A stretch of 24,526 nucleotides of DNA from a virus (IMGVR_UViG_3300027806_000149:1-24526); one strand, 5' to 3'. Positions 1,512-13,657 are shown, counted from the first letter of the stretch. Notes: generated by a model from the sequence alone, not told the origin. Numbers and translations are program-made.

Positions 1512-1929
1512 GGAGATGGACATCCCCGAGATGGGGGCCCTCCTCCTGGAGATGCACCACACCTCACCCATGCGCCTACCCCCAGTGGCCCCCCACAAGG
1601 TGGAGGCTGCGCTGCGCCAGTGCCTCCGGGAGGGCCGCGTCTTCGTTGCCCGCCGGGGTAGGATTGTGGGCATCCTCGCCCTCCAGGCGGTGGAACAGTG
1701 GTACAGCCACGAGAAATTCCTGGGTGACCTGGTCTTCTACGTGAGCCCATCCTCGAGGGTTTCCCGCGTGGCCTCCAAGCTGTTGCGCGCCGCCACCGAA
1801 TATGCTACAATGCGGGAACTCCCCCTCCTCATGGCCGTGGTTCACGGAGAGGACGTGGAGCGCAAGGACCAGTTCTACGTGCGCCACGGATTTTCCCGCG
1901 TGGGCGGTGTATACAGTAGGGGTTTCTGA
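1495..1929 (+). CDS. GNAT-family N-acetyltransferase
   Basis: 144 aa, ATG at 1495 inside the end of the previous gene. The fold order looks like GNAT: an N-terminal helix pair (residues 9-46), a strand pair with VFVARRGRIVGILAL (49-63), a central strand GDLVFYVSP (77-85), a helix SRVASKLLRAATEYA (90-104) in the acetyl-CoA-binding position, and a C-terminal FYVRHGFSRVGGVYSRGF typical of the last GNAT strands ('Fy.+.GF...g..y'). The pyrophosphate loop is degenerate, with no clear Q/RxxGxG/A, so activity is not certain. Phage genomes often carry a GNAT among virion genes, where it could acetylate a virion or host protein; the substrate cannot be told from the sequence. Its stop overlaps the next start as TGATG at 1927-1931. 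Confidence 0.82.
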   Translation: MIEIAKEMDIPEMGALLLEMHHTSPMRLPPVAPHKVEAALRQCLREGRVFVARRGRIVGILALQAVEQWYSHEKFLGDLVFYVSPSSRVSRVASKLLRAATEYATMRELPLLMAVVHGEDVERKDQFYVRHGFSRVGGVYSRGF

Positions 1930-2879
1930 TGGGTTCACTTTGTACCTCCAAAGCCAATCCTGTACCCACCACTACGGTACAGTCCTCCGCTTTCCCGGCG
2001 TGGTACGAGGATGCCCTCAAGCGCCTGACGGACGCCGGAGAGGCTGAGGTCCGGGCCACCCCCTACGAGTACTACGACCCCCAGGAGCGCGTCGCCCCCC
2101 TGAGTGCTACGGAGCAGGCCACCATCGGGCAGGTTCCCGTCGCCGCTGGGGCCTACATGCCGGGCCTTGCCGCTGGCTTCGAGAGTGCCGCCCTAGGTTC
2201 CAGGGGCGTGGGGGACATCGACTACTCCTCCTACATGAATCCCTACACGCAGTACGTCACCGACATCGCCAAGCGTGAGGCGGTGCGCGACTACGACAAG
2301 AGGCGTGGGGAGATGGGCTTCCAGGCCTCCCGCCAAGGTGCATTTGGTGGGGCGCGCTACGGGGTGCAGGAGGCTGAGGGTGAGCGCAACCTGGGCCAGC
2401 GCCTCGCTGACATCCAGCAGACCGGCCTCGAGCGGGCCTTCACGGCGGGCACCGGACTCCAGCAGCAGGAGGCCCAGCGCCAGTTGCAGGCAGCGCCCAT
2501 GTTCTCCTCCATGGGTGCCCAGGCCCAGCAGTTGGGCCTCGGGGGCCTCGACGCCATCATGAAGTCCCAGGCACTGCCGCGCCAACTCGAGCAGCAGCAG
2601 CGTGACCTCGCCTTCGCTGAGTACCAGCGCGGCCAGGGTTACGGGATGCAGCAGCTTGGCCAACTTGGTGCCCTCCTGAGGGGAACCCAGCCTGGTGCCA
2701 CTACCACTACGCAGGGCCAGACCTTGGTCCCCCAGCAGTCTCCCCTGCAAATGGGTGCTGGCCTCGGACTCACAGGTGCCTCCATCTACAACCTGATGGG
2801 CTACGGCAACTCCGGGGCTTCCCCCGCATCATGGGCTACATCCATGAGTGCCCGGGCTCTTGGGCTCCCGGGGTTCTGA
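1929..2879 (+). CDS. Putative internal virion / structural protein, Gln-rich helical
   Basis: 316 aa, started at the ATG overlapping the GNAT stop by one base. Residues 20-45 form a short amphipathic helix. A conserved-looking core includes DIDYSSYMNPYTQYV (96-110) and SRQGAFGGARYG (134-145). The following region to about 245 is Gln/Ala-rich and predicted helical, and the tail is Gly-rich. The 'yMNPYt..V.d.a...a.Rd......a..aGafGgsR..' type of sequence is common in virion proteins encoded just before large internal proteins in podovirus-like phages. This is family recollection, not a search. No enzymatic motif is visible. It probably belongs to the internal or ejection apparatus together with the three downstream genes. 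Confidence 0.78.
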   Translation: MGSLCTSKANPVPTTTVQSSAFPAWYEDALKRLTDAGEAEVRATPYEYYDPQERVAPLSATEQATIGQVPVAAGAYMPGLAAGFESAALGSRGVGDIDYSSYMNPYTQYVTDIAKREAVRDYDKRRGEMGFQASRQGAFGGARYGVQEAEGERNLGQRLADIQQTGLERAFTAGTGLQQQEAQRQLQAAPMFSSMGAQAQQLGLGGLDAIMKSQALPRQLEQQQRDLAFAEYQRGQGYGMQQLGQLGALLRGTQPGATTTTQGQTLVPQQSPLQMGAGLGLTGASIYNLMGYGNSGASPASWATSMSARALGLPGF

Positions 2880-4323: not shown

Positions 4324-7300
4324 ATGGCAACTCCCAGCAAGATGGAGTGGGATGAGGCCAGAGAACAGTGGATCCCCGCCACTGGCCGCCCCGGTGCATC
4401 CTTCATTCAGTGGAATGGGGTAAGCTGGGACGAAGGCAAGAACCCTGAGGGTCCGGGGGCATTTCGCCGGGGCCTTGAAACTGGCTGGGAAAGCACGAAG
4501 GGGCTAGCCTTCGACGTTCTTCCCGCCATGATCCAGAGTGCCTTTGGCTACGAGGAGGCATCCCAGCGCAACCTCGATGCCTACAAGAAGAGGATGGACG
4601 AGCTGCAGGCCAAGGGACTCCTGGCTCGCACCACCTACCAGGATGTCCAGGATGTTTCCTCTCTCGGCTCCTACGTAGGGGAGGCAGTAGGTGAGGCCAT
4701 TCCCTCCCTTGCCACTTCCCTCCTGGGTGGCCTCGGCATTGGTGCGGCGGCAACGCGCCTGGGTGCGGGCAAGATGCTCACCCAGCAGGTCGCCAAGAGG
4801 GCTGCGGCCCTCGAAGCGGAGGCTGCCGCCACTGGCACCACCCTGGGGCGCGAAGCCGCCATCAAGGCAGCCACCTCCGAGGTGAGCCGCAACGTGGGCA
4901 TCGCAGCGGGTGCTTTCGGCGGCAGCGCCCTCCAGAACATTCCCGAGTCCTTCGCCTCCCTTGCGGAGGAAGGCCAGCAGAGCCTGGGGGCCGCCTTCGT
5001 GGTAGGCTCCCTCAAGAGTGCCCTCGATGCCCTGGGCCCCGTGCGCCTCCTCAGCAAGACCCGGGGAACCGACTTCTCCGACAAGCTGACGGATGTCCTC
5101 AGTGCCCGACTCCTCAAGGGAAGGCCGGGGGCCGCAGGTGCCCTGGGTGGTACCCTCGAGACCGTGGCCCTCGAAGGTCTCACGGAGGGTACCCAGCAGC
5201 TCCTCGATGAGACTGCCAAGGTCATCCTCGCGGACAAGTCCGTGGACTGGACCCAGGTCATCGACGCGGCCCTCAAGGGCGGTATTGGTGCGGCCCCTGC
5301 AGGTGGTGTTGCCGGAGCCCTGGGTGCCCGCAGCAAGGCTGCCGCCGAGGAGACCCGGGCCAAGCAGATCGATGAGTACCAGCAGAAGCTCGCCGCCGAG
5401 AGGGAACTTGCGGAGAAGGGACGCCTCGCCGCAGCGGAGCGCGAGAAGTGGGAGCGTGAGCGCGCCGAGGCCGAGCAGGACTACATCAACAAGCGCATGA
5501 CCGGGGAGATCGAGGTTCCTCCCCGCGAGCGGGCCGACATCGACTACTTCAAGGATGCGCTGCGCGAAGTCGAACAGGCCACGGGAATCCGGGTCACCAT
5601 GCGGACCCGCAAGGACAAGGAGGGCAACGTCCTTGTCGAGAAGGCTGACCTCCTCCCCATGGGCATCCGCAAGGGCGACCAGGTCATCCAGAAGGATTCT
5701 ACCGGAGCCCCCGTCCTCCAAGTGAACCAGGAAGACGTGATGCGCCGGGCCCAGGAGTTGGCGCAGCAGAAGGTCATCGATCCCAGTACGGGCAAGCCCT
5801 TCACCGTAGCCTCCGCTCGCAATGCCCTCCAGAAGGCTGCGATCTTCGAGGTGCAGCGTACCGCCCAGCGGATGCGCAGCGACGACCAAGCCGAGAAGGA
5901 TGGGGAGTACGCCCTGAAATTCTTCGGCCAGACTTCTGCCGAAAACGTTGCGACACAGGGTCCCACGCAGCTTCAGGGCAGGGAGTATCAACTCCAGAAG
6001 GCGCGTCAACTCGTTGACGAAGTGCGGGCCGACCCGGAGTCCCTCGACCTGGTCCCGGGCCTGCGCCAGCAATTCGAGCAAGCCCAAGCCCTCTTGGAGG
6101 AGAAACGCTGGGGTGACTACGACGCCCGGATGGAAGCCCAGAAGCAGGAACGGGCGGAAGAGCGCGAGCTGGGTCCCCTTGTGGGCAAGCCCTTCACGGG
6201 CAGCGGTGCCCTCACGGTGGAGCGGGAGACCCCGCAGATCACCCCCGAGCAGCGAGATGCCCTGCTCGATGCCGGGTACCGCCTCGACCAGATTGCCCAG
6301 ATGCCCCCCGAGAGGGTGCAGGCCATCCTCATGGATCGCCAGCAGGAAGAGGTGGCAGCCCCCCAGATTGGGCAGCAGCAGCGCCTCGCCCTCGAAGGTG
6401 TGCTGGGCAGGGTGCAGAGGGGCGAGCAGGTTTCCATCCCCGCCGTCCAACAGGCCCTCGGGGAGACTGGCCTCGACCTGACCCCCGCACAGACCCGGCA
6501 GGTCCTCCAGGCCTATGCCCCCGAGAGGGCCACCACCCGAGGCATCGGGATGCAGGTGGTTGACCCCGCGTACCGTCTCGAGGAGAGGGACGGCACCTTC
6601 TTCAAGGCCAAGAGGGGCGAGACCAAGGAGCCCTACGTGGCCCCCGAGGTCGAGGAGCAACCCCGTCGGGGTGTGGAGCGCAGGCCCGCCGACCTTCCCA
6701 CCGAGTCCACCCAGACCTCCCGACCCATCACGGAGGTGCAGGGCGGCCTGCAGAATCCCCCCGCAGGCTACGACCGAAGGGATTTTGCCGTCCTCCACAA
6801 CGCCATCGTGAGGCGCGGCTCCTCCAAGATACTCACCCGCAACGACCTCGAAACCGTGGCGCAGCGAGAGTTCGACTCCCCCAGGGAAGTTGCCTCCGTC
6901 TGGGAAGGCCTGGTCAAATCCGGGGCGGTGCGCAAGGAGGGGCTGGGCTACCGCGTCCTCAAGGATGCCCCTGTCATCTCCGAGTTCCAGGCGGAAGACG
7001 TGGGGACCACCACCACCAAGAAGCCCACCGAGGTGGCGGAGGAGCCTTCCAAGTATACCCCACCGAAGACCAAGGTGTCCAGGGAGAAAAAGCCTGAGGC
7101 TACCAGAAAGCCGGAGTCCAAGACTTTCCCGGCTGACTCTCTCAATGAATCTAAGATCTTCAAGACTTGGGATGATCTCCAGAAGCACATTGATTCTGGC
7201 ATGGATATCATAGTCTACCGAGGAGTGCGGTGGAACGTGGATCCCGATGAATCCGATCCCAGGAAAATGGCCAAGAGGGAGACTACCCAGTACGGATACT

Positions 7301-7905
7301 TTTGGTCCCCGTCCTATCCTGTAGCATCTCAATACTCGCGGGGCCTCGGTCAAGCATTTGGAGAGCGTGTCAATGATGGCGAAGTCTACGCCATGCGAAT
7401 TCCTGCCAAGACAATGGCTGAAGCTGTTCGCACAGAGCAGGAAATTCCCCTGCAGCAGATCAAGCGCCTCACAGCTCTACGTCAAAACATACTTGCAGAC
7501 GAAGGCATTGAATTTGTAATTCCGCCAAGGCTGCATGGAAAGAGGATCAAGCTTTCTGCAGACCTTGATTTTTCTGAACTCAACAAGGCTGTGCGCAAGC
7601 TCGAAAATGCCGAGCCCGTCACCAGCAAGATTGAGCCCATTTCTTCCAAGCTGCGCTACGATCTCTTTAACGAAGGTCTAACCAGTTCTCAGATTTCCGA
7701 ACTGACTGAAACTGAAGCTCGGGAATATTTGCGCAACGCTCAGAAAACCAGTCCAAAGACCCCGGGCCCTTCCAAGATTGGTCGGACGGTCGTACCTGAT
7801 GATGCGCCCCCCGAGATTCGGAAGAACGTGGAGGCGGCCCAGAACATGATGGATCGCCAAGAGAAGATCAACGATGCCAACCCCGACGACTATTCCTGCA
7901 GGTAA
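4324..7905 (+). CDS. Large internal (ejection-type) virion protein with ART-like insert, 1193 aa
   Basis: ATG at 4324, six bases after the previous stop; the ribosome site is weak. Visible architecture: residues 1-110 start with a MEWDEAREQWIPATG-type segment; about 113-150 is a Gly/Ala hydrophobic, possibly membrane-active stretch (AIPSLATSLLGGLGIGAAA); a second Gly/Ala stretch lies near 315-340; a long charged coiled coil spans about 335-395; Gln-rich helices follow. About 823-880 resembles a winged helix (NAIVRRGSS to EGLGYRVL), and a Pro/Lys/Thr-rich linker precedes an ADP-ribosyltransferase-like region (about 945-1090, annotated separately). Very large, Ala/Gln/Glu-rich proteins with membrane-active stretches are typical of podovirus proteins ejected with the DNA. 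No lytic transglycosylase motif was seen. It ends at a TAA directly followed, in the same frame, by the next large gene. Confidence 0.8.
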   Translation: MATPSKMEWDEAREQWIPATGRPGASFIQWNGVSWDEGKNPEGPGAFRRGLETGWESTKGLAFDVLPAMIQSAFGYEEASQRNLDAYKKRMDELQAKGLLARTTYQDVQDVSSLGSYVGEAVGEAIPSLATSLLGGLGIGAAATRLGAGKMLTQQVAKRAAALEAEAAATGTTLGREAAIKAATSEVSRNVGIAAGAFGGSALQNIPESFASLAEEGQQSLGAAFVVGSLKSALDALGPVRLLSKTRGTDFSDKLTDVLSARLLKGRPGAAGALGGTLETVALEGLTEGTQQLLDETAKVILADKSVDWTQVIDAALKGGIGAAPAGGVAGALGARSKAAAEETRAKQIDEYQQKLAAERELAEKGRLAAAEREKWERERAEAEQDYINKRMTGEIEVPPRERADIDYFKDALREVEQATGIRVTMRTRKDKEGNVLVEKADLLPMGIRKGDQVIQKDSTGAPVLQVNQEDVMRRAQELAQQKVIDPSTGKPFTVASARNALQKAAIFEVQRTAQRMRSDDQAEKDGEYALKFFGQTSAENVATQGPTQLQGREYQLQKARQLVDEVRADPESLDLVPGLRQQFEQAQALLEEKRWGDYDARMEAQKQERAEERELGPLVGKPFTGSGALTVERETPQITPEQRDALLDAGYRLDQIAQMPPERVQAILMDRQQEEVAAPQIGQQQRLALEGVLGRVQRGEQVSIPAVQQALGETGLDLTPAQTRQVLQAYAPERATTRGIGMQVVDPAYRLEERDGTFFKAKRGETKEPYVAPEVEEQPRRGVERRPADLPTESTQTSRPITEVQGGLQNPPAGYDRRDFAVLHNAIVRRGSSKILTRNDLETVAQREFDSPREVASVWEGLVKSGAVRKEGLGYRVLKDAPVISEFQAEDVGTTTTKKPTEVAEEPSKYTPPKTKVSREKKPEATRKPESKTFPADSLNESKIFKTWDDLQKHIDSGMDIIVYRGVRWNVDPDESDPRKMAKRETTQYGYFWSPSYPVASQYSRGLGQAFGERVNDGEVYAMRIPAKTMAEAVRTEQEIPLQQIKRLTALRQNILADEGIEFVIPPRLHGKRIKLSADLDFSELNKAVRKLENAEPVTSKIEPISSKLRYDLFNEGLTSSQISELTETEAREYLRNAQKTSPKTPGPSKIGRTVVPDDAPPEIRKNVEAAQNMMDRQEKINDANPDDYSCR
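7141..7590 (+). other. ADP-ribosyltransferase-like domain inside the 1193-aa virion protein
   Basis: Three motifs occur in the order expected for the R-S-E class of ART fold. First, an arginine on a hydrophobic strand, DIIVYRGVRW with Arg966. Second, YGYFWSPSYPVASQYSRG with Trp994-Ser995-Pro996-Ser997, in the place of the 'F-x-S-T-S...A..Y' motif. Third, DEGIEFVIPP with Glu1060 and Glu1063, in the place of the catalytic 'E...lpP' strand. A strand EVYAMRIPAKTM lies between the second and third, as in ART folds. By eye, 60-base lines across 7141-7740 are about 42-53% GC, against 68% for a line counted at 6121-6180. Motif reading only; the domain could be a degenerate or different YRG-containing fold. 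Confidence 0.55.
7900..7902 (+). promoter_or_regulatory. Ribosome-binding core selecting the start of the 929-aa gene
   Basis: AGG within GCAGGTAAGTGATG lies six bases before the ATG at 7909, a normal spacing. This favours ATG 7909 over the adjacent GTG 7906. It also supports independent, translationally coupled initiation after the TAA at 7903-7905 rather than obligatory readthrough. Confidence 0.5.
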
Positions 7906-7908
7906 GTG

Positions 7909-10698
7909 ATGGCCGTCTGTAATCCCTCCAAGTCTGGCATCCTCCATCCGGCACTTCAGCGCGCCCACATGCTGCGCCAATCCCTCGAGGCTACGCGGCG
8001 CAGCGACGACCCCGTGCGCCAGATGTCCACGTGGCAGAGGTGGGGCACCTCCTTCAGCGGCATCGACTCCATCGCCACCACCTGGAAGGAGCTGGTGCCC
8101 TACGTGCGGGCGCTCGAGTCGGGGGAGGAGATCCGCAGCACCCTCAACATGGAATACAGCAAGACCATGCGGAAGGTGGCCGATCTCGATACCGACAAGG
8201 TGCGGTCCCTTACCCGCATCATGGAGGTGGAGGATGCCGAGGGCAGGCTTGCGCAGGAAAATGCTGATGGCAGCGCCACCATCACCGCCCAGAAGGATCA
8301 CGTGGGGGTAAAGAAGGGGGAGACCGTCACCCTCCCCAAGGCCCTCAACGAGACCCGCAAGGAGATGCGCGAAGTCATTGACTCCATCTACTCGCGCATG
8401 ATAGATGCCACCAAGGCCGCCATGGGGTATGGGCCCAACGATACTCCCAGCAAGGAGGACGCCAAGCTCCTTGCCCTCATGGAGAACTTCCGCAAGGAAG
8501 GCTACATCCCCCACATCCGCGTGGGGCGGTGGGCCCTGCAGTACACCCTCGGGGGCCAGAAATACTTCGAGAGCTACGGCTTCGATGTCCGTAGGGGATT
8601 CAAGGGAAGCGGGCGCAACATCGCGGAGGAGCGCAAGAAGGAGCTGGAGAAGCAGGGGGCGCAAGTCTCCAATGTCCTGGACATGCAGGCTCGCTCCAGC
8701 ATGCTCCAGAAGTACCTGCCCACCCTCAACACCCTCTCGAAGATGGATCTCCTCTTCCAGAGCATCCTCACCCCCAAGAACAAGGGGGCGGCCCAGGAGG
8801 TCAAGGAGATCATTGATCAGTTGCGCAAGGAGGCCCAGGCCCCCAATGCGCGCCTGCGCAAGCGCGACGACATCAAGGGGTGGCTGCGCCCCGACAACTA
8901 CGACACGTACCTGCGCAGCGTCTTCTCGCCCTTCGTAGCCTCCACCAGCGACTGGATCGCCAACAAGGCCACCGAGCCTACGCGCCAGCAGGCCATCTCC
9001 TCCATCAAGGATGACAACGTCCGCCAGATCGCGGAGAACCAGGAGGAGTACCTCCACAGCGACGAGTCGAAGATTGCCCAGATGAAGAGCCTGGCCTTCT
9101 TCTACACGCTGGGGGGCAACCTGTCCTCGTCCCTCGTCAACTTCACCCAGCTTCCCCACACTGCCCTCCCCTTCCTGGGTGGTGCCGGGGGTGCTGGCAG
9201 GGCAGCGGCGGCCCTCGTCAAGGCGGTGCGCGACATCTCCGGGGGTGGGCGCGCCACCATGGATCCCGACCGCGTCTTCGACATCGACAAGATGAACATC
9301 TCCCAGGACGAGAAGCAATTCCTCAAGGAGATGTACAATAGGGGCGTGGCCGAGGCCCTCCTCACCCGCGACCAGGCTCCAGCCTACATGAGCAAGAGCC
9401 AGATCAAGGAAGTCTATGCGGTGGGCCAGGTCCTTGGCCGCATCATGGAGGCGTCCTCCCTCGCCTTCACCATGGTGGAGCAGGTCAACCGTCTCAGCAC
9501 GGGGCTCGCCGCCTACCGCATGGCGAAGGACCAGAAGACCCTCGAGAGCTTCCAGCGGATGGCGGCCAACGTCAACCAGGAAGTGAAGGACCCCACCGAA
9601 GCTGCCATCTTCGCCGTCAAGGAGACGCAGTTCGTCACCTCCAAGCCCTTCCGCGCCCGCGCCATGCACGGGATGCTGGGCGGCGTGGGCCTCCAGTTCA
9701 TGGCCTTCCCCATCAAGATGCTGGGGTTCTTCCGCCGCGCCTTCAAATACTATGGGGGCGGCAAGCTCCTCGAGACCCCCGAGGGCAAGAAGATGTCGAG
9801 CCTGCTGGTGCTGGGCATCTTCGCCACGTCGGGGATCTGGGGCCTCCCCTTCATGGTTCCCGCCACCGAACTGTTCGACTTCCTCACGAAGCACCTGGGC
9901 AAGGAGCTGGGCATGACGCCCACCGCCACCAAGGTGTACCTGCGCGAACTCCTCAAGGATGTCTACAAGGAGCTGCCCATCCTCAATGCTGCGGGGACCC
10001 CCGCAGAGCTGGCGGACATGACCATCAACGGGCCGTTCCGCGCCACTGGGGTGGACATCTCGAAGAGGACGGCCCTCGACATCGTCAACTTCAATCCGCT
10101 CTCCTTCGACATCTTCAACTTTGGTCCCCTCGGCGGGGCAGTCTTCGGGGGCATCCGAGACTTCTTCGCCTATCGCAGCAAGGGGGAGGACCTCATGGCC
10201 ATCGCCTCCCTCATGCCCATCGCGGTGCGCAACATCGCCCGCTCCTACACCATGCAGGAATCCGGCTACATCAGCCCGGGCAAGATGGAGCCCGCCCTCC
10301 CCGCCAAGGAAGTGAGCGAGCCGGGGGATGTCCTGCGCGTGGCGGTGGGCTTCACTCCCACCAAGGTGGCAAGGGCCCGCGAAGCCCTCGAGGAAACCAA
10401 GCAGTTGCAGGAGAGGACCGACGACATCCGCAAGTCCTACAGCGACCGCATCGCCACCGCCATCATCAAGTACCGCAATACGGGAGACTCCGAGCATATG
10501 GCGGAGGCCCAGCGCCTGCGCAACGAGGTCATGGAGAGGGACGTGGGCAAGTCTCCCCAGGATCGCATCGTGCGCGACGGCGAGTCCTTCAACTCCTCCA
10601 TCGCGGAGAAGGTGCGGGCGGGCATGCGCCCCCAGAGTGGCGACGCGGTATCCCCGCAGTTCCGCTCCTACTACCGGGAGCGAGTCAAGGGCGAGTGA
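7909..10698 (+). CDS. Second large internal (ejection-type) virion protein, 929 aa
   Basis: Starts at ATG 7909 (or GTG 7906) right after the stop of the previous gene and in the same reading frame. The N-terminal ~390 residues are helical and charged. Hydrophobic, possibly membrane-active stretches lie at about 394-441 (starts SLAFFYTLGGNLSSSLVNF), 589-608 (MLGGVGLQFMAFPIKMLGFF), 630-656 (SSLLVLGIFATSGIWGLPFM) and 734-752 (rich in Gly and Phe). The 'GNlSSslVNftQlP' element followed by 'fvtskpfRarAm...G..G....F' resembles the C-terminal part of large polyvalent or ejected phage proteins (PLxRFG / LPD type in my recollection). The C-terminal ~120 residues are again charged helices. No catalytic residues recognised. 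With the upstream 1193-aa protein it probably forms the trans-envelope DNA-ejection apparatus. Confidence 0.78.
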   Translation: MAVCNPSKSGILHPALQRAHMLRQSLEATRRSDDPVRQMSTWQRWGTSFSGIDSIATTWKELVPYVRALESGEEIRSTLNMEYSKTMRKVADLDTDKVRSLTRIMEVEDAEGRLAQENADGSATITAQKDHVGVKKGETVTLPKALNETRKEMREVIDSIYSRMIDATKAAMGYGPNDTPSKEDAKLLALMENFRKEGYIPHIRVGRWALQYTLGGQKYFESYGFDVRRGFKGSGRNIAEERKKELEKQGAQVSNVLDMQARSSMLQKYLPTLNTLSKMDLLFQSILTPKNKGAAQEVKEIIDQLRKEAQAPNARLRKRDDIKGWLRPDNYDTYLRSVFSPFVASTSDWIANKATEPTRQQAISSIKDDNVRQIAENQEEYLHSDESKIAQMKSLAFFYTLGGNLSSSLVNFTQLPHTALPFLGGAGGAGRAAAALVKAVRDISGGGRATMDPDRVFDIDKMNISQDEKQFLKEMYNRGVAEALLTRDQAPAYMSKSQIKEVYAVGQVLGRIMEASSLAFTMVEQVNRLSTGLAAYRMAKDQKTLESFQRMAANVNQEVKDPTEAAIFAVKETQFVTSKPFRARAMHGMLGGVGLQFMAFPIKMLGFFRRAFKYYGGGKLLETPEGKKMSSLLVLGIFATSGIWGLPFMVPATELFDFLTKHLGKELGMTPTATKVYLRELLKDVYKELPILNAAGTPAELADMTINGPFRATGVDISKRTALDIVNFNPLSFDIFNFGPLGGAVFGGIRDFFAYRSKGEDLMAIASLMPIAVRNIARSYTMQESGYISPGKMEPALPAKEVSEPGDVLRVAVGFTPTKVARAREALEETKQLQERTDDIRKSYSDRIATAIIKYRNTGDSEHMAEAQRLRNEVMERDVGKSPQDRIVRDGESFNSSIAEKVRAGMRPQSGDAVSPQFRSYYRERVKGE

Positions 10699-10739: not shown

Positions 10740-11501
10740 ATGCTGCACATCTTCATTGGCTATGACTCTAGGGAGGACATCGCCTACAAGGTAGCCGCGC
10801 ATAGCATCAAGCGGCATTGTAGCGTCCCCTGTGTCATCACCCCCCTCAAGCTTGATAGCTTCAAGGCTGCAGGGAAGTATTGGCGCACATCGTACAGGGA
10901 AGGCAACCAGATGATCGACGTGGCGGACGGCAAGCCGTTCTCCACGGAGTTCTCCTTCTCGCGCTTCCTCGTGCCTCACATTGCGGGGAGGCATGACATA
11001 CGAGATCTTGTCGTTTTCGTAGACTGCGACTTTCTCTTCTTCGATGACATCAAGAAGATGCTCCAGTTCTGCGATCCCGATGTGGCGGTCTCGGTGGTGA
11101 AGCACCAGTTTGTCCCCAAAGAAACCGTCAAGATGGACGGGGTTGCGCAGACGCAGTACCAGCGTAAACTGTGGTCCTCCCTCATGGTTCTGAATCCCCT
11201 GCACCCCGACTGCCGGAAGCTGGACCTCGAAGCTGTCAACACCAAGAAGGGGTCGTACCTCCACGGCTTCGAGTGGACGGACAGTATCGGTGAGATTGAC
11301 GAGACCTGGAACTGGCTTCCATATCACAGTCCCACCACGCGCTACTCCTACGAGAGCCCGAAGGCTGTGCATTTCACTGACGGTGGGCCCTGGTTCTCCG
11401 GCTACAAGGATGTCCCCTATGCCGCCGCATGGAATGCGGAGAAGGCCTTGGTGGAACATGAGTTCTTCAACTGGCAACATGTGGTGGACCTCTACAAATG
11501 A
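10740..11501 (+). CDS. GT-A fold glycosyltransferase (GT8-like)
   Basis: 253 aa, ATG at 10740. The N-terminus, MLHIFIGYDSREDIAYKVAA, matches the opening of GT8-like phage and bacterial glycosyltransferases ('ifIGyDsrE..Ay.v...Si'). The nucleotide-sugar and metal-binding DxD motif is VVFVDCDFLFFDD with Asp95 and Asp97, preceded by a FSRFLVP helix as expected in the family. Length is close to the minimal catalytic domain, and there is no signal peptide or membrane helix, so it should act in the cytoplasm. The donor sugar and acceptor are not predictable. It overlaps the following glycosyltransferase fusion by four bases (ATGA), so the two are coupled and likely act on the same target, either a virion protein or host glycan. 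Confidence 0.82.
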   Translation: MLHIFIGYDSREDIAYKVAAHSIKRHCSVPCVITPLKLDSFKAAGKYWRTSYREGNQMIDVADGKPFSTEFSFSRFLVPHIAGRHDIRDLVVFVDCDFLFFDDIKKMLQFCDPDVAVSVVKHQFVPKETVKMDGVAQTQYQRKLWSSLMVLNPLHPDCRKLDLEAVNTKKGSYLHGFEWTDSIGEIDETWNWLPYHSPTTRYSYESPKAVHFTDGGPWFSGYKDVPYAAAWNAEKALVEHEFFNWQHVVDLYK

Positions 11502-13657
11502 GAATCGTTACATCATGGGGGCCGAAGGGCTGGGACCTTTACGGCAAGAACTTCATCGAGTCCACGCGCCTGTGGGACCCCGGTATCTCCCTCACCGTCT
11601 ACGTGGACGGGATGGATCCGGGCGCAGTGTCAGGCCCCCGACCCGTCACTGTCAAGAGGCTTGAGGAGGTGGAAGGTTTCACCGCCTTCCGCACCGCGAA
11701 CGCGGACAAGAATGGGGAAACCCCCGAGGGCTACAACTACCGACTGGACGCCCTGAAGTTCTGCGCCAAGGTCTTCGCCCTCCACGATGCCGCCCTCGAC
11801 CCCGAGCCCTTCGTGTGGCTCGACGGGGATGTCATCACCACCAAGCCCCTCACCCTGGAGTGGCTGCAGGGAATGTGCCGAGGCCAGGTCACCCACCTCG
11901 GCCGCAAGGGCATCAACTACAGCGAGACCGGCTTCATCTACTTCGCAGGTAACGAGGCTCGCACACTCATCGCTGACATGTACGACCTCTACATGACCGG
12001 GGAGATCTTCAACTACAGCGAGTGGACCGACGCCTTCATCTTCGAGCGCGTCCTCCAGATGCACAAGCTGCACGGACTCGAGGCCGTCAACCTCGTGGAC
12101 CCCGACTACGTGGGGCTCGATGCCTTCGAGAACAGCCCACTCAAGGAGGTCTTCACCCACCTCAAGGGCGCTCGAAAGAACAAGGTGGTGGCCGGTCTCA
12201 AGACCCGCTACGACCAGCTCCTCGCCCTCGTGCAGCACTACATGCCCCAGGTGATCCTCGAGACCGGGACGTGGAACGGGGACCGTGCCGTGCAGATGGC
12301 GCAGGTTGCGCTGGGGAAATGGGACCACGTTGTCTACCACGGCTATGACCTCTTCGAGGATGCCTCGGCTGAGAGCGACGCCAAGGAACACAACATCAAG
12401 AAGCACCACAGCCTCGAGGAAGTCAAGGGGAAGCTGCAGGCCTTTGCCGACGCCATGCGCGCCAAGGGCAAGCACTTCGAGTTCCATCTCACCAAAGGTG
12501 ACACCAAGGATACTCTCAAGGAGGTGCCCGTCTCGGATTTCGCGTGGCTCGACGGGGGGCACAGCGACGCCACCATCGCGCACGACTGGGAGATGTGCAA
12601 GCCCATTCCGGTGGTGGTCTTCGATGACTACTACACTGCAGACGCCGAGGGCAGGATCCCCGAGTTCCGTGGGGTCGAAAAGGTCTTTGCCGCTATCCCC
12701 CGCGCCAAGAAGCTCTACGTGAGCAAGGATGCGGTGGTGGGCGGGGGCATCGTCAACATTGCCGCCGTGGGTGACGGGCTCCCCGATCTCCCCGATGCTG
12801 GCATGGGCGCGGTGCCCATCAAGGTGACGGCCCAGGACTGCATGCCCAAGGATCACATCGTGGGCAACGTGCAGGAGAACCTGACCCTCCTGCGGAAGTG
12901 GGTGGGCAAGGCTCGCCCCCATGACCGCAGCCTGGTCATCGTCTCGGCGGGCCCCAGCATCCACCGGATGAAGGACAAGATCATCAAGATGTGGAAGGAG
13001 GGTGCGGACATCGCGGTGGTGAAGCACTCCCTCCCCACCGTGGTGGGCTGGGGCGTTGACCCCGAGTACCTCATCCTGCTGGACCCGCGCCCCGTCGAGG
13101 GCATCAGCACCCATGGGGTGCGCCGCTCCGATCTCCTCGAGGATATCCCACCCTCCACGAAGGTGCTGGTGGCCTCGATGTCGGACCCCTCGGTGACGCG
13201 CCACATCCTGGGCAGGACGAAGAACGTGTGGGGCTGGCATGCCATGACGCAGGCCCTCCTCAAGAGCGAGGTGTTCCCCGTGGACTCCCTCCTCATCAAT
13301 GGGGGTACGTGCGCTGCGTGGCGCATGGTGAGCGTGGGCCAGGCCCTGGGCTACCGTGAGTACCACCTCTTCGGCTTCGACTTCTGCTACCCCGAGGGGC
13401 AGATCGACAAGGCCGCGAAGGACGAGCAGGGCCGCCCCAAGTACATGCAGGTGACGGTGGGCAAGGGAGGCCCCCGCTTCTGGAGTACGGGGGAGCTGAT
13501 CGCAGCCTCGCAGGACGCCCAGTACTTCTTCGAGAATGCGAAGATGATGGGGATCCGCATCTACTGCCACGGGGAGGGAATGGGTCCCGCCATCTGGCGC
13601 GCCATCCTGGGCGGCAAGCAGCAGGAACTGCCCACCCTCAAGGAGATCTTCAAGTGA
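11498..13657 (+). CDS. Three-module fusion: glycosyltransferase + methyltransferase-like + DUF115 (Maf-like)
   Basis: 719 aa from the ATG at 11498. Module 1 (about 1-215) is a GT-A-like glycosyltransferase with FVWLDGDVITTKPL carrying a DGD motif at 109-111. Module 2 (about 230-430) looks like a class I SAM methyltransferase of the Methyltransf_24 type: glycine motif VILETGTWNGDRAVQMA from residue 252, and DFAWLDGGHSD at 347-357. Module 3 (about 470-710) matches DUF115 as I know it from MptE-like and flagellin glycosylation Maf proteins: SLVIVSAGPSIHRM from 478, YLILLDPRP near 529, and LINGGTCAAWRMVSVGQALG near 597. DUF115 is linked to nonulosonate or flagellin glycosylation and to pterin pyrophosphorylation. 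The combination suggests building or transferring a methylated glycan, possibly onto phage tail or capsid proteins. No membrane segments. It overlaps the downstream gene by GTGA. Confidence 0.78.
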   Translation: MRIVTSWGPKGWDLYGKNFIESTRLWDPGISLTVYVDGMDPGAVSGPRPVTVKRLEEVEGFTAFRTANADKNGETPEGYNYRLDALKFCAKVFALHDAALDPEPFVWLDGDVITTKPLTLEWLQGMCRGQVTHLGRKGINYSETGFIYFAGNEARTLIADMYDLYMTGEIFNYSEWTDAFIFERVLQMHKLHGLEAVNLVDPDYVGLDAFENSPLKEVFTHLKGARKNKVVAGLKTRYDQLLALVQHYMPQVILETGTWNGDRAVQMAQVALGKWDHVVYHGYDLFEDASAESDAKEHNIKKHHSLEEVKGKLQAFADAMRAKGKHFEFHLTKGDTKDTLKEVPVSDFAWLDGGHSDATIAHDWEMCKPIPVVVFDDYYTADAEGRIPEFRGVEKVFAAIPRAKKLYVSKDAVVGGGIVNIAAVGDGLPDLPDAGMGAVPIKVTAQDCMPKDHIVGNVQENLTLLRKWVGKARPHDRSLVIVSAGPSIHRMKDKIIKMWKEGADIAVVKHSLPTVVGWGVDPEYLILLDPRPVEGISTHGVRRSDLLEDIPPSTKVLVASMSDPSVTRHILGRTKNVWGWHAMTQALLKSEVFPVDSLLINGGTCAAWRMVSVGQALGYREYHLFGFDFCYPEGQIDKAAKDEQGRPKYMQVTVGKGGPRFWSTGELIAASQDAQYFFENAKMMGIRIYCHGEGMGPAIWRAILGGKQQELPTLKEIFK

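Follow-up and report, generated by a model that had tools for sequence, protein, structure and literature searches.

A low-GC cassette exchanged among polyvalent-type virion proteins of phages, probably encoding an R-[ST]-E ADP-ribosyltransferase-like domain

The record analysed, virus IMGVR_UViG_3300027806_000149, comprises 24,526 bases; this whole stretch is referred to as the window. It contains an open reading frame for a 1193-aa protein, the N-terminus of which matches PHROG 6958, a virion structural protein (1.1e-7). This gene and its surroundings comprise the following features:

1929-2879, plus strand: gene of a DNA-ejection-protein PHROG (phrog_4287, 5.7e-11), upstream of the host gene by two genes
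4324-7905, plus strand: host gene of the module described below, an ORF of 1193 aa for a polyvalent-like virion protein, with orthologues in other loci
4324-5373, plus strand: conserved N-terminal part of about 350 aa, with ~48-56% identity to the more distant of the intact orthologues
6751-6963, plus strand: putative small winged-helix-like domain, assigned by eye from the sequence pattern
7036-7125, plus strand: Pro/Lys/Thr-rich linker preceding the module
7126-7746, plus strand: horizontally exchanged low-GC cassette (aa 935-1141), with a GC content of 49.6% versus 65.7% in the preceding part of the gene and an identity jump to the orthologue in L005
7645-7746, plus strand: small helical motif LRYDLFNEGLTSSQISELTETEAREYL, present too in the module-free locus L009
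7906-10698, plus strand: next gene, encoding a PLxRFG / tail-700 domain protein (NF032893, 6.6e-48) of a DarB-like PHROG (PHROG 11358 and 10089)

From gene context and the PHROG labels, we infer that the 1193-aa protein may be an ejection protein. Its extreme C-terminus (D-[YI]-[SD]-C-[GR]-stop; window 7880-7915) is kept in orthologues, and the corresponding codons overlap an apparent ribosome-binding AGG of the next gene, which begins GTGATGGCC; this overlap may in part account for the conservation. Further downstream, at 11498-13657, a 719-aa protein combines a methyltransferase-24 domain with an MptE-like domain, and its N-terminus resembles hypothetical proteins from other phages.

Intact orthologues of the 1193-aa protein have in common an N-terminal part of ~350 residues and a short stretch at the C-terminus, and differ in their middle and tail domains. 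Domains found in the orthologues of L040, L043, L044 and L047 include Sigma70_r1_1, FtsK_gamma (two copies in L044), HATPase_c_3 and a WLM metallopeptidase; FtsK-gamma, sigma-1.1 or TrmB-like domains occur in some relatives of the host gene. By eye, a ParB-like stretch was seen in L036 and L046, and an HSHP (JAB-like) motif in L047. The gene family thus carries unrelated enzymatic and binding domains; in the window's own protein, the ART-like module is the only recognised one. Such a pattern of varied domains, with PLxRFG/DarB-like and DNA-ejection neighbours, is that described for polyvalent proteins (PMC5512222), and by these sequence features the host gene is assigned to a polyvalent-protein-like family with exchangeable domains.

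The base composition of the gene changes abruptly near its 3' end. Positions 7138-7758 form the lowest-GC 621-bp segment of the whole record, with 49.3% against a record mean of 62.5% (sliding-window SD 3.2%) and a lowest value elsewhere of 55.6% at the same segment length; GC3 is 0.53 within the low-GC stretch versus 0.80 outside. The initial annotation had noted the same contrast in single 60-base lines (about 42-53% between 7141 and 7681, about 68% at 6121), and a recount yielded 41.7% for the line at 7141, 53.3% at 7201, 50.0% at 7441, 45.0% at 7501 and 46.7% at 7681, as against 68.3% at 6121. It had also described a Pro/Lys/Thr-rich linker flanking the motif series, which is found ahead of the motifs, and had delimited the stretch as 7081-7770, close to the exchanged block of ~7110-7746 that is set by comparison with L005.

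L005 (viral contig IMGVR_UViG_3300011113_000749) encodes an orthologue of the 1193-aa protein. Its module has 91-93% protein identity and ~91% DNA identity to that of the window, as opposed to 38-66% protein identity of the orthologue outside the module and ~60-68% DNA identity of the surrounding gene. Along the alignment of window and L005, DNA identity rises sharply at ~7110-7145 and drops at ~7746. Between the two, dS is 0.39 for the module and 0.75-1.5 for the flanks, and dN/dS is 0.085 for the module and 0.27-0.70 for the rest of the gene; on account of these lower values, the module is considered younger in shared history than its surroundings and strongly constrained, its dN/dS being that of a domain under purifying selection. 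The corresponding gene of L009 (IMGVR_UViG_3300042691_044433) has no module, yet its flanks are 96-97% identical to L005, with 97% DNA identity over 1222 bp at the start of the gene and 156 bp at its end. Of this region, only the small helical motif downstream of the module is left in L009. As a separate observation, L005 carries an additional ORF among its ejection-type genes (L005:893-1834), which by eye is lytic transglycosylase-like and for which no window counterpart was recognised.

A scan with the neighbouring PLxRFG gene yielded 15 loci, among them L037, which brings the known module copies to three (window, L005, L037). In L037, aa 1363-1480 of an orthologue of 1950 aa form a divergent copy, at a position unlike that in the window; 59 of 127 ungapped residues (46%) are identical to the window module (43% by BLAST), and the copy is likewise low in GC (45-50%). 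In L035 and L039, close relatives of L037, the module is absent and the site empty, while the DNA flanks of the site are 91-98% identical between L037 and L039. The L037 module sits between direct repeats of ~21 bp that encode IPQAMSS and are present in single copy in L039 and L035:

L037:6036-6059 and 6657-6680 (aa 1298 and 1505): (G/D)IPQAMSS linker repeats, ~21-bp direct repeat
L036 and L046, aa 892, and L039 and L035, aa ~1201: (G/D)IPQAMSS linker, single in the module-free L039 and L035

In L036 and L046, the IPQAMSS sequence stands ahead of a different module, and judging by the sequences the (G/D)IPQAMSS linker is likely a recombination seam.

The module is accordingly a cassette that is exchanged among phages whose surrounding gene has diverged, that is present or absent in close relatives, and that varies in position between proteins. 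The suggestion of the initial annotation that it was recently acquired as a discrete domain is borne out by the identity jump to L005, by presence and absence in relatives, and by its being the lowest-GC stretch of the record. That this part of the gene was inherited vertically and owes its low GC to local compositional noise or a local codon bias is a very remote prospect: low-GC patches do occur elsewhere in such genes, for example in the C-terminal part of L037, but the identity jump to L005, the absence of the module from L009, L039 and L035, and its insertion between repeats in L037 speak against it, and the pattern of presence and absence already contradicts it.

For the nature of the encoded domain, the three copies were aligned, and the following features were assigned in the window:

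7144-7578, plus strand: ART-like domain core (aa 941-1085), conserved in L037 (three-copy alignment)
7219-7221, plus strand: R966 in VYRG, predicted NAD-binding Arg, invariant (alignment and profile)
7306-7308, plus strand: S995 in FWSPS (T in L037), predicted S/T position of the R-S-E signature (alignment, spacing)
7435-7443, plus strand: E1038-Q-E1040, predicted ExE catalytic motif (EKE in L037; profile alignment, spacing)
7501-7527, plus strand: EGIEFVIPP block (E1060, E1063), strongly conserved, with the catalytic candidate of the initial annotation (alignment)

Across the three copies, 58 residues are invariant, including R966, E1038, E1040, E1060 and E1063, and the conserved motifs are VYRGVR, YFW[ST]P, GxVxAMxIP, E1038-x-E1040 and NILAxEGxEFVIPPxxHGK. 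VYRG (R966), FWSPS (993-997) and EGIEFVIPP (1060-1068) all lie at the residues originally quoted. Conservation of the R...S...E series in homologues, proposed at that stage as a check, holds in L037 for R966, the S/T position and E1063, but not for the second Ser of FWSPS: the S-x-S motif reads FWSPS in the window and L005 and FWTPD in L037, with the first position retained as S/T and the second not.

With the L037 copy as query, the sole match in a phage collection was the MuF protein of Streptococcus phage Javan636, at an E-value of 6, which is not significant alone. The matched C-terminal domain of this protein is an ART by Pfam (PF03496, 1.3e-19), and the YRG, the S/T position and VVxxxxPxxT are in register between module and Javan636 ART. 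A test profile was built from other MuF/Alt ARTs, with the discovery sequence Javan636 left out, and compared using hhalign. The three-sequence module profile aligned to this leave-one-out profile over 84 columns with a P-value of 8.4e-5 and a probability of 60%, statistics that are not fully independent because the ART group was picked after turning up as a match. All 191 real-protein decoys scored lower, be it for the three-sequence profile, the window alone or L037 alone, and 150 shuffles all stayed below the score obtained with the MuF profile; upon removal of the Alt-like Ac42 sequence, P was 0.01, still above all decoys. By its profile, the module resembles the MuF/Alt-like ARTs of phages, and the key motifs fall in register (STATISTICALLY).

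The same profile alignments place E1038-Q-E1040 (EKE in L037) on the E-x-E motif. With E1040, the S-to-E spacing is 45 in the window and 42 in L037, as compared with 41-48 in MuF ARTs; with E1063 it is 68 and 65, respectively, outside the MuF range and inside the Alt/Mod range of 61-74. We therefore rather favour E1040 of E1038-x-E1040 as the predicted catalytic Glu over E1063, which the initial annotation had put forward. E1063 is invariant and stays a candidate, since its block is the best conserved.

Family searches of the module in Pfam, NCBIfam, PHROGs and PADLOC, and against PDB sequences, returned nothing significant, with no Pfam ART family up to an E-value of 10. Run directly on the record, PF18760 (ART-PolyVal), PF03496, PF01129, PF08808 (RES) and PF13151 (DUF3990) gave no match; nor did T4 Alt, ModA and ModB profiles match the module significantly. 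As no family HMM matched at threshold, the module is not filed as a member of PF03496. Membership in ART-PolyVal was discarded on the grounds that there was no PF18760 match up to an E-value of 10 and that the residues are R-[ST]-E and not H-Y-D.

Structure prediction and fold comparison had been suggested in the initial annotation. AlphaFold models computed from two near-identical sequences had a pLDDT of 45 (209 aa) and 61 (145 aa) and an order of helix, strand (VYRG), strand (YFWS), helix, strand (VYAMRI), helix and later strands. Searches of PDB and viral folds with these two models returned no ART and nothing credible, the models being too weak to exclude an ART. With low-confidence models and no ART from the fold searches, the ART fold of the module is putative. 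Of the ART-like domain as first proposed, the R-S-E signature conserved in L037 and the alignment to MuF/Alt ARTs above all decoys stand, while fold comparison lends it no match; by sequence, the module is probably, though not provenly, an R-[ST]-E ART.

The low-GC stretch is thus best read, with reasonable confidence, as a mobile effector cassette in a polyvalent-type virion protein that most likely encodes an R-[ST]-E ART-fold domain (R966, S995, E1038-x-E1040). That the mobile cassette instead encodes an effector or structural module with a fold other than ART, perhaps a different enzyme, and that its R-S-E likeness arose by short-motif convergence, appears unlikely but deserves weight: there is no curated family match, the models are of low confidence and without fold match, and the alignment to MuF ARTs does not take in the best-conserved block, NILAxEGxEFVIPPxxHGK. 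Against convergence, three motif blocks follow the order and register of real ARTs, at a score that no decoy matched once Javan636 was left out, and the predicted succession helix-strand-strand-helix-strand would suit one half of an ART. We regard as distinctly improbable that the domain has an ART fold but no catalysis and now has a binding or structural role in the virion protein; the change from FWSPS to FWTPD in L037 and a Gly at -2 of the EGxE block would fit such a loss, but R966 and the E-x-E pair are invariant over ~54% divergence, and the dN/dS is low.

Among known systems, Alt/VIP2-family ARTs fused to MuF have been described in a later survey (PMC9503650). MuF-fused R-S-E ARTs (PF04233 + PF03496; Streptococcus phage Javan636, Enterococcus phage AE4_2) likewise have a D-[LI]-x-x-YRG strand and the S/T position, and share with the module the GxVxxxIPxxT strand, an E-x-E at the same S-to-E spacing and a virion-type carrier. 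They differ in that the carrier of the module is not MuF and the module is below every family threshold; F-STS in these ARTs corresponds to FWSP[SD] in the module, which has NILAxEGxEFVIPPxxHGK in addition.

T4 Alt is an ART that is packaged in the virion and injected. With T4 Alt, ModA and ModB (Alt/VIP2 clade, R-S-E), the module would share the three-residue logic, Alt serving as a works-like model, whereas the carrier differs, there is no significant profile match, and nothing points to an RNA polymerase target for the module. By the precedents of T4 Alt and of polyvalent proteins, the 1193-aa protein is probably packaged in the virion and would enter the host along with the DNA. Early in infection, the module would then bind NAD+ and either put ADP-ribose on a host macromolecule or hydrolyse NAD+, an outcome of which would be to favour phage takeover or blunt a host defence; its variation in presence and absence would fit an arms race.

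ART-PolyVal (PF18760, Tox-ART-HYD2 clade) is an ART domain in multi-domain phage polyvalent proteins with H-Y-D residues (PMC5512222). The module shares this type of carrier but has R-[ST]-E instead. ARTs in polyvalent proteins are thus known, those described being H-Y-D, and an R-[ST]-E module on a polyvalent-like carrier is probably new. Like the polyvalent proteins of phages and conjugative elements (PMC5512222), the host gene encodes a long protein of virion type whose unrelated domains can be interchanged, and its neighbour is a PLxRFG/DarB-like gene; here, cassette exchange is seen directly as presence and absence, once with repeat-flanked seams. In the current view, polyvalent proteins serve phages as exchangeable weapon racks injected at infection, and module exchange is usually inferred from distant comparisons. 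In the present genes it shows directly, in flanks that are nearly identical whether or not they enclose the module and in an insertion bordered by repeats. If the module is an active ART, it would add an R-[ST]-E branch to polyvalent-protein ARTs and offer an early effector against host machinery or defence that can be tested. We put forward tentatively, at somewhat less than even chances, that it represents an undescribed family of R-[ST]-E ART-like effectors, with ~600-bp cassettes circulating among polyvalent virion proteins and moving in and out at short repeated linkers, as in polymorphic toxins but inside injected phage proteins.

Phage and plasmid collections, searched with the window module for further copies, gave nothing meaningful, and scans of genome contigs that used the module or the neighbour protein as query turned up no relative. 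Apart from the known copies, degenerate DNA patterns based on FWSPS..A..YSRG and EGIEFVIPP retrieved a single chance match, L011, which was rejected as a module copy. A Caulobacter phage match (H25) spans tRNA/hypothetical genes and was dropped. A weak match in Vibrio harveyi plasmid p3 (H71; L051:1156-1827) encodes a 223-aa hypothetical protein without a match in a Pfam search; it has an R-S-E-like series, YRG...WSTDFS..A..FA...ESEVVL, and is perhaps distantly related to the module.
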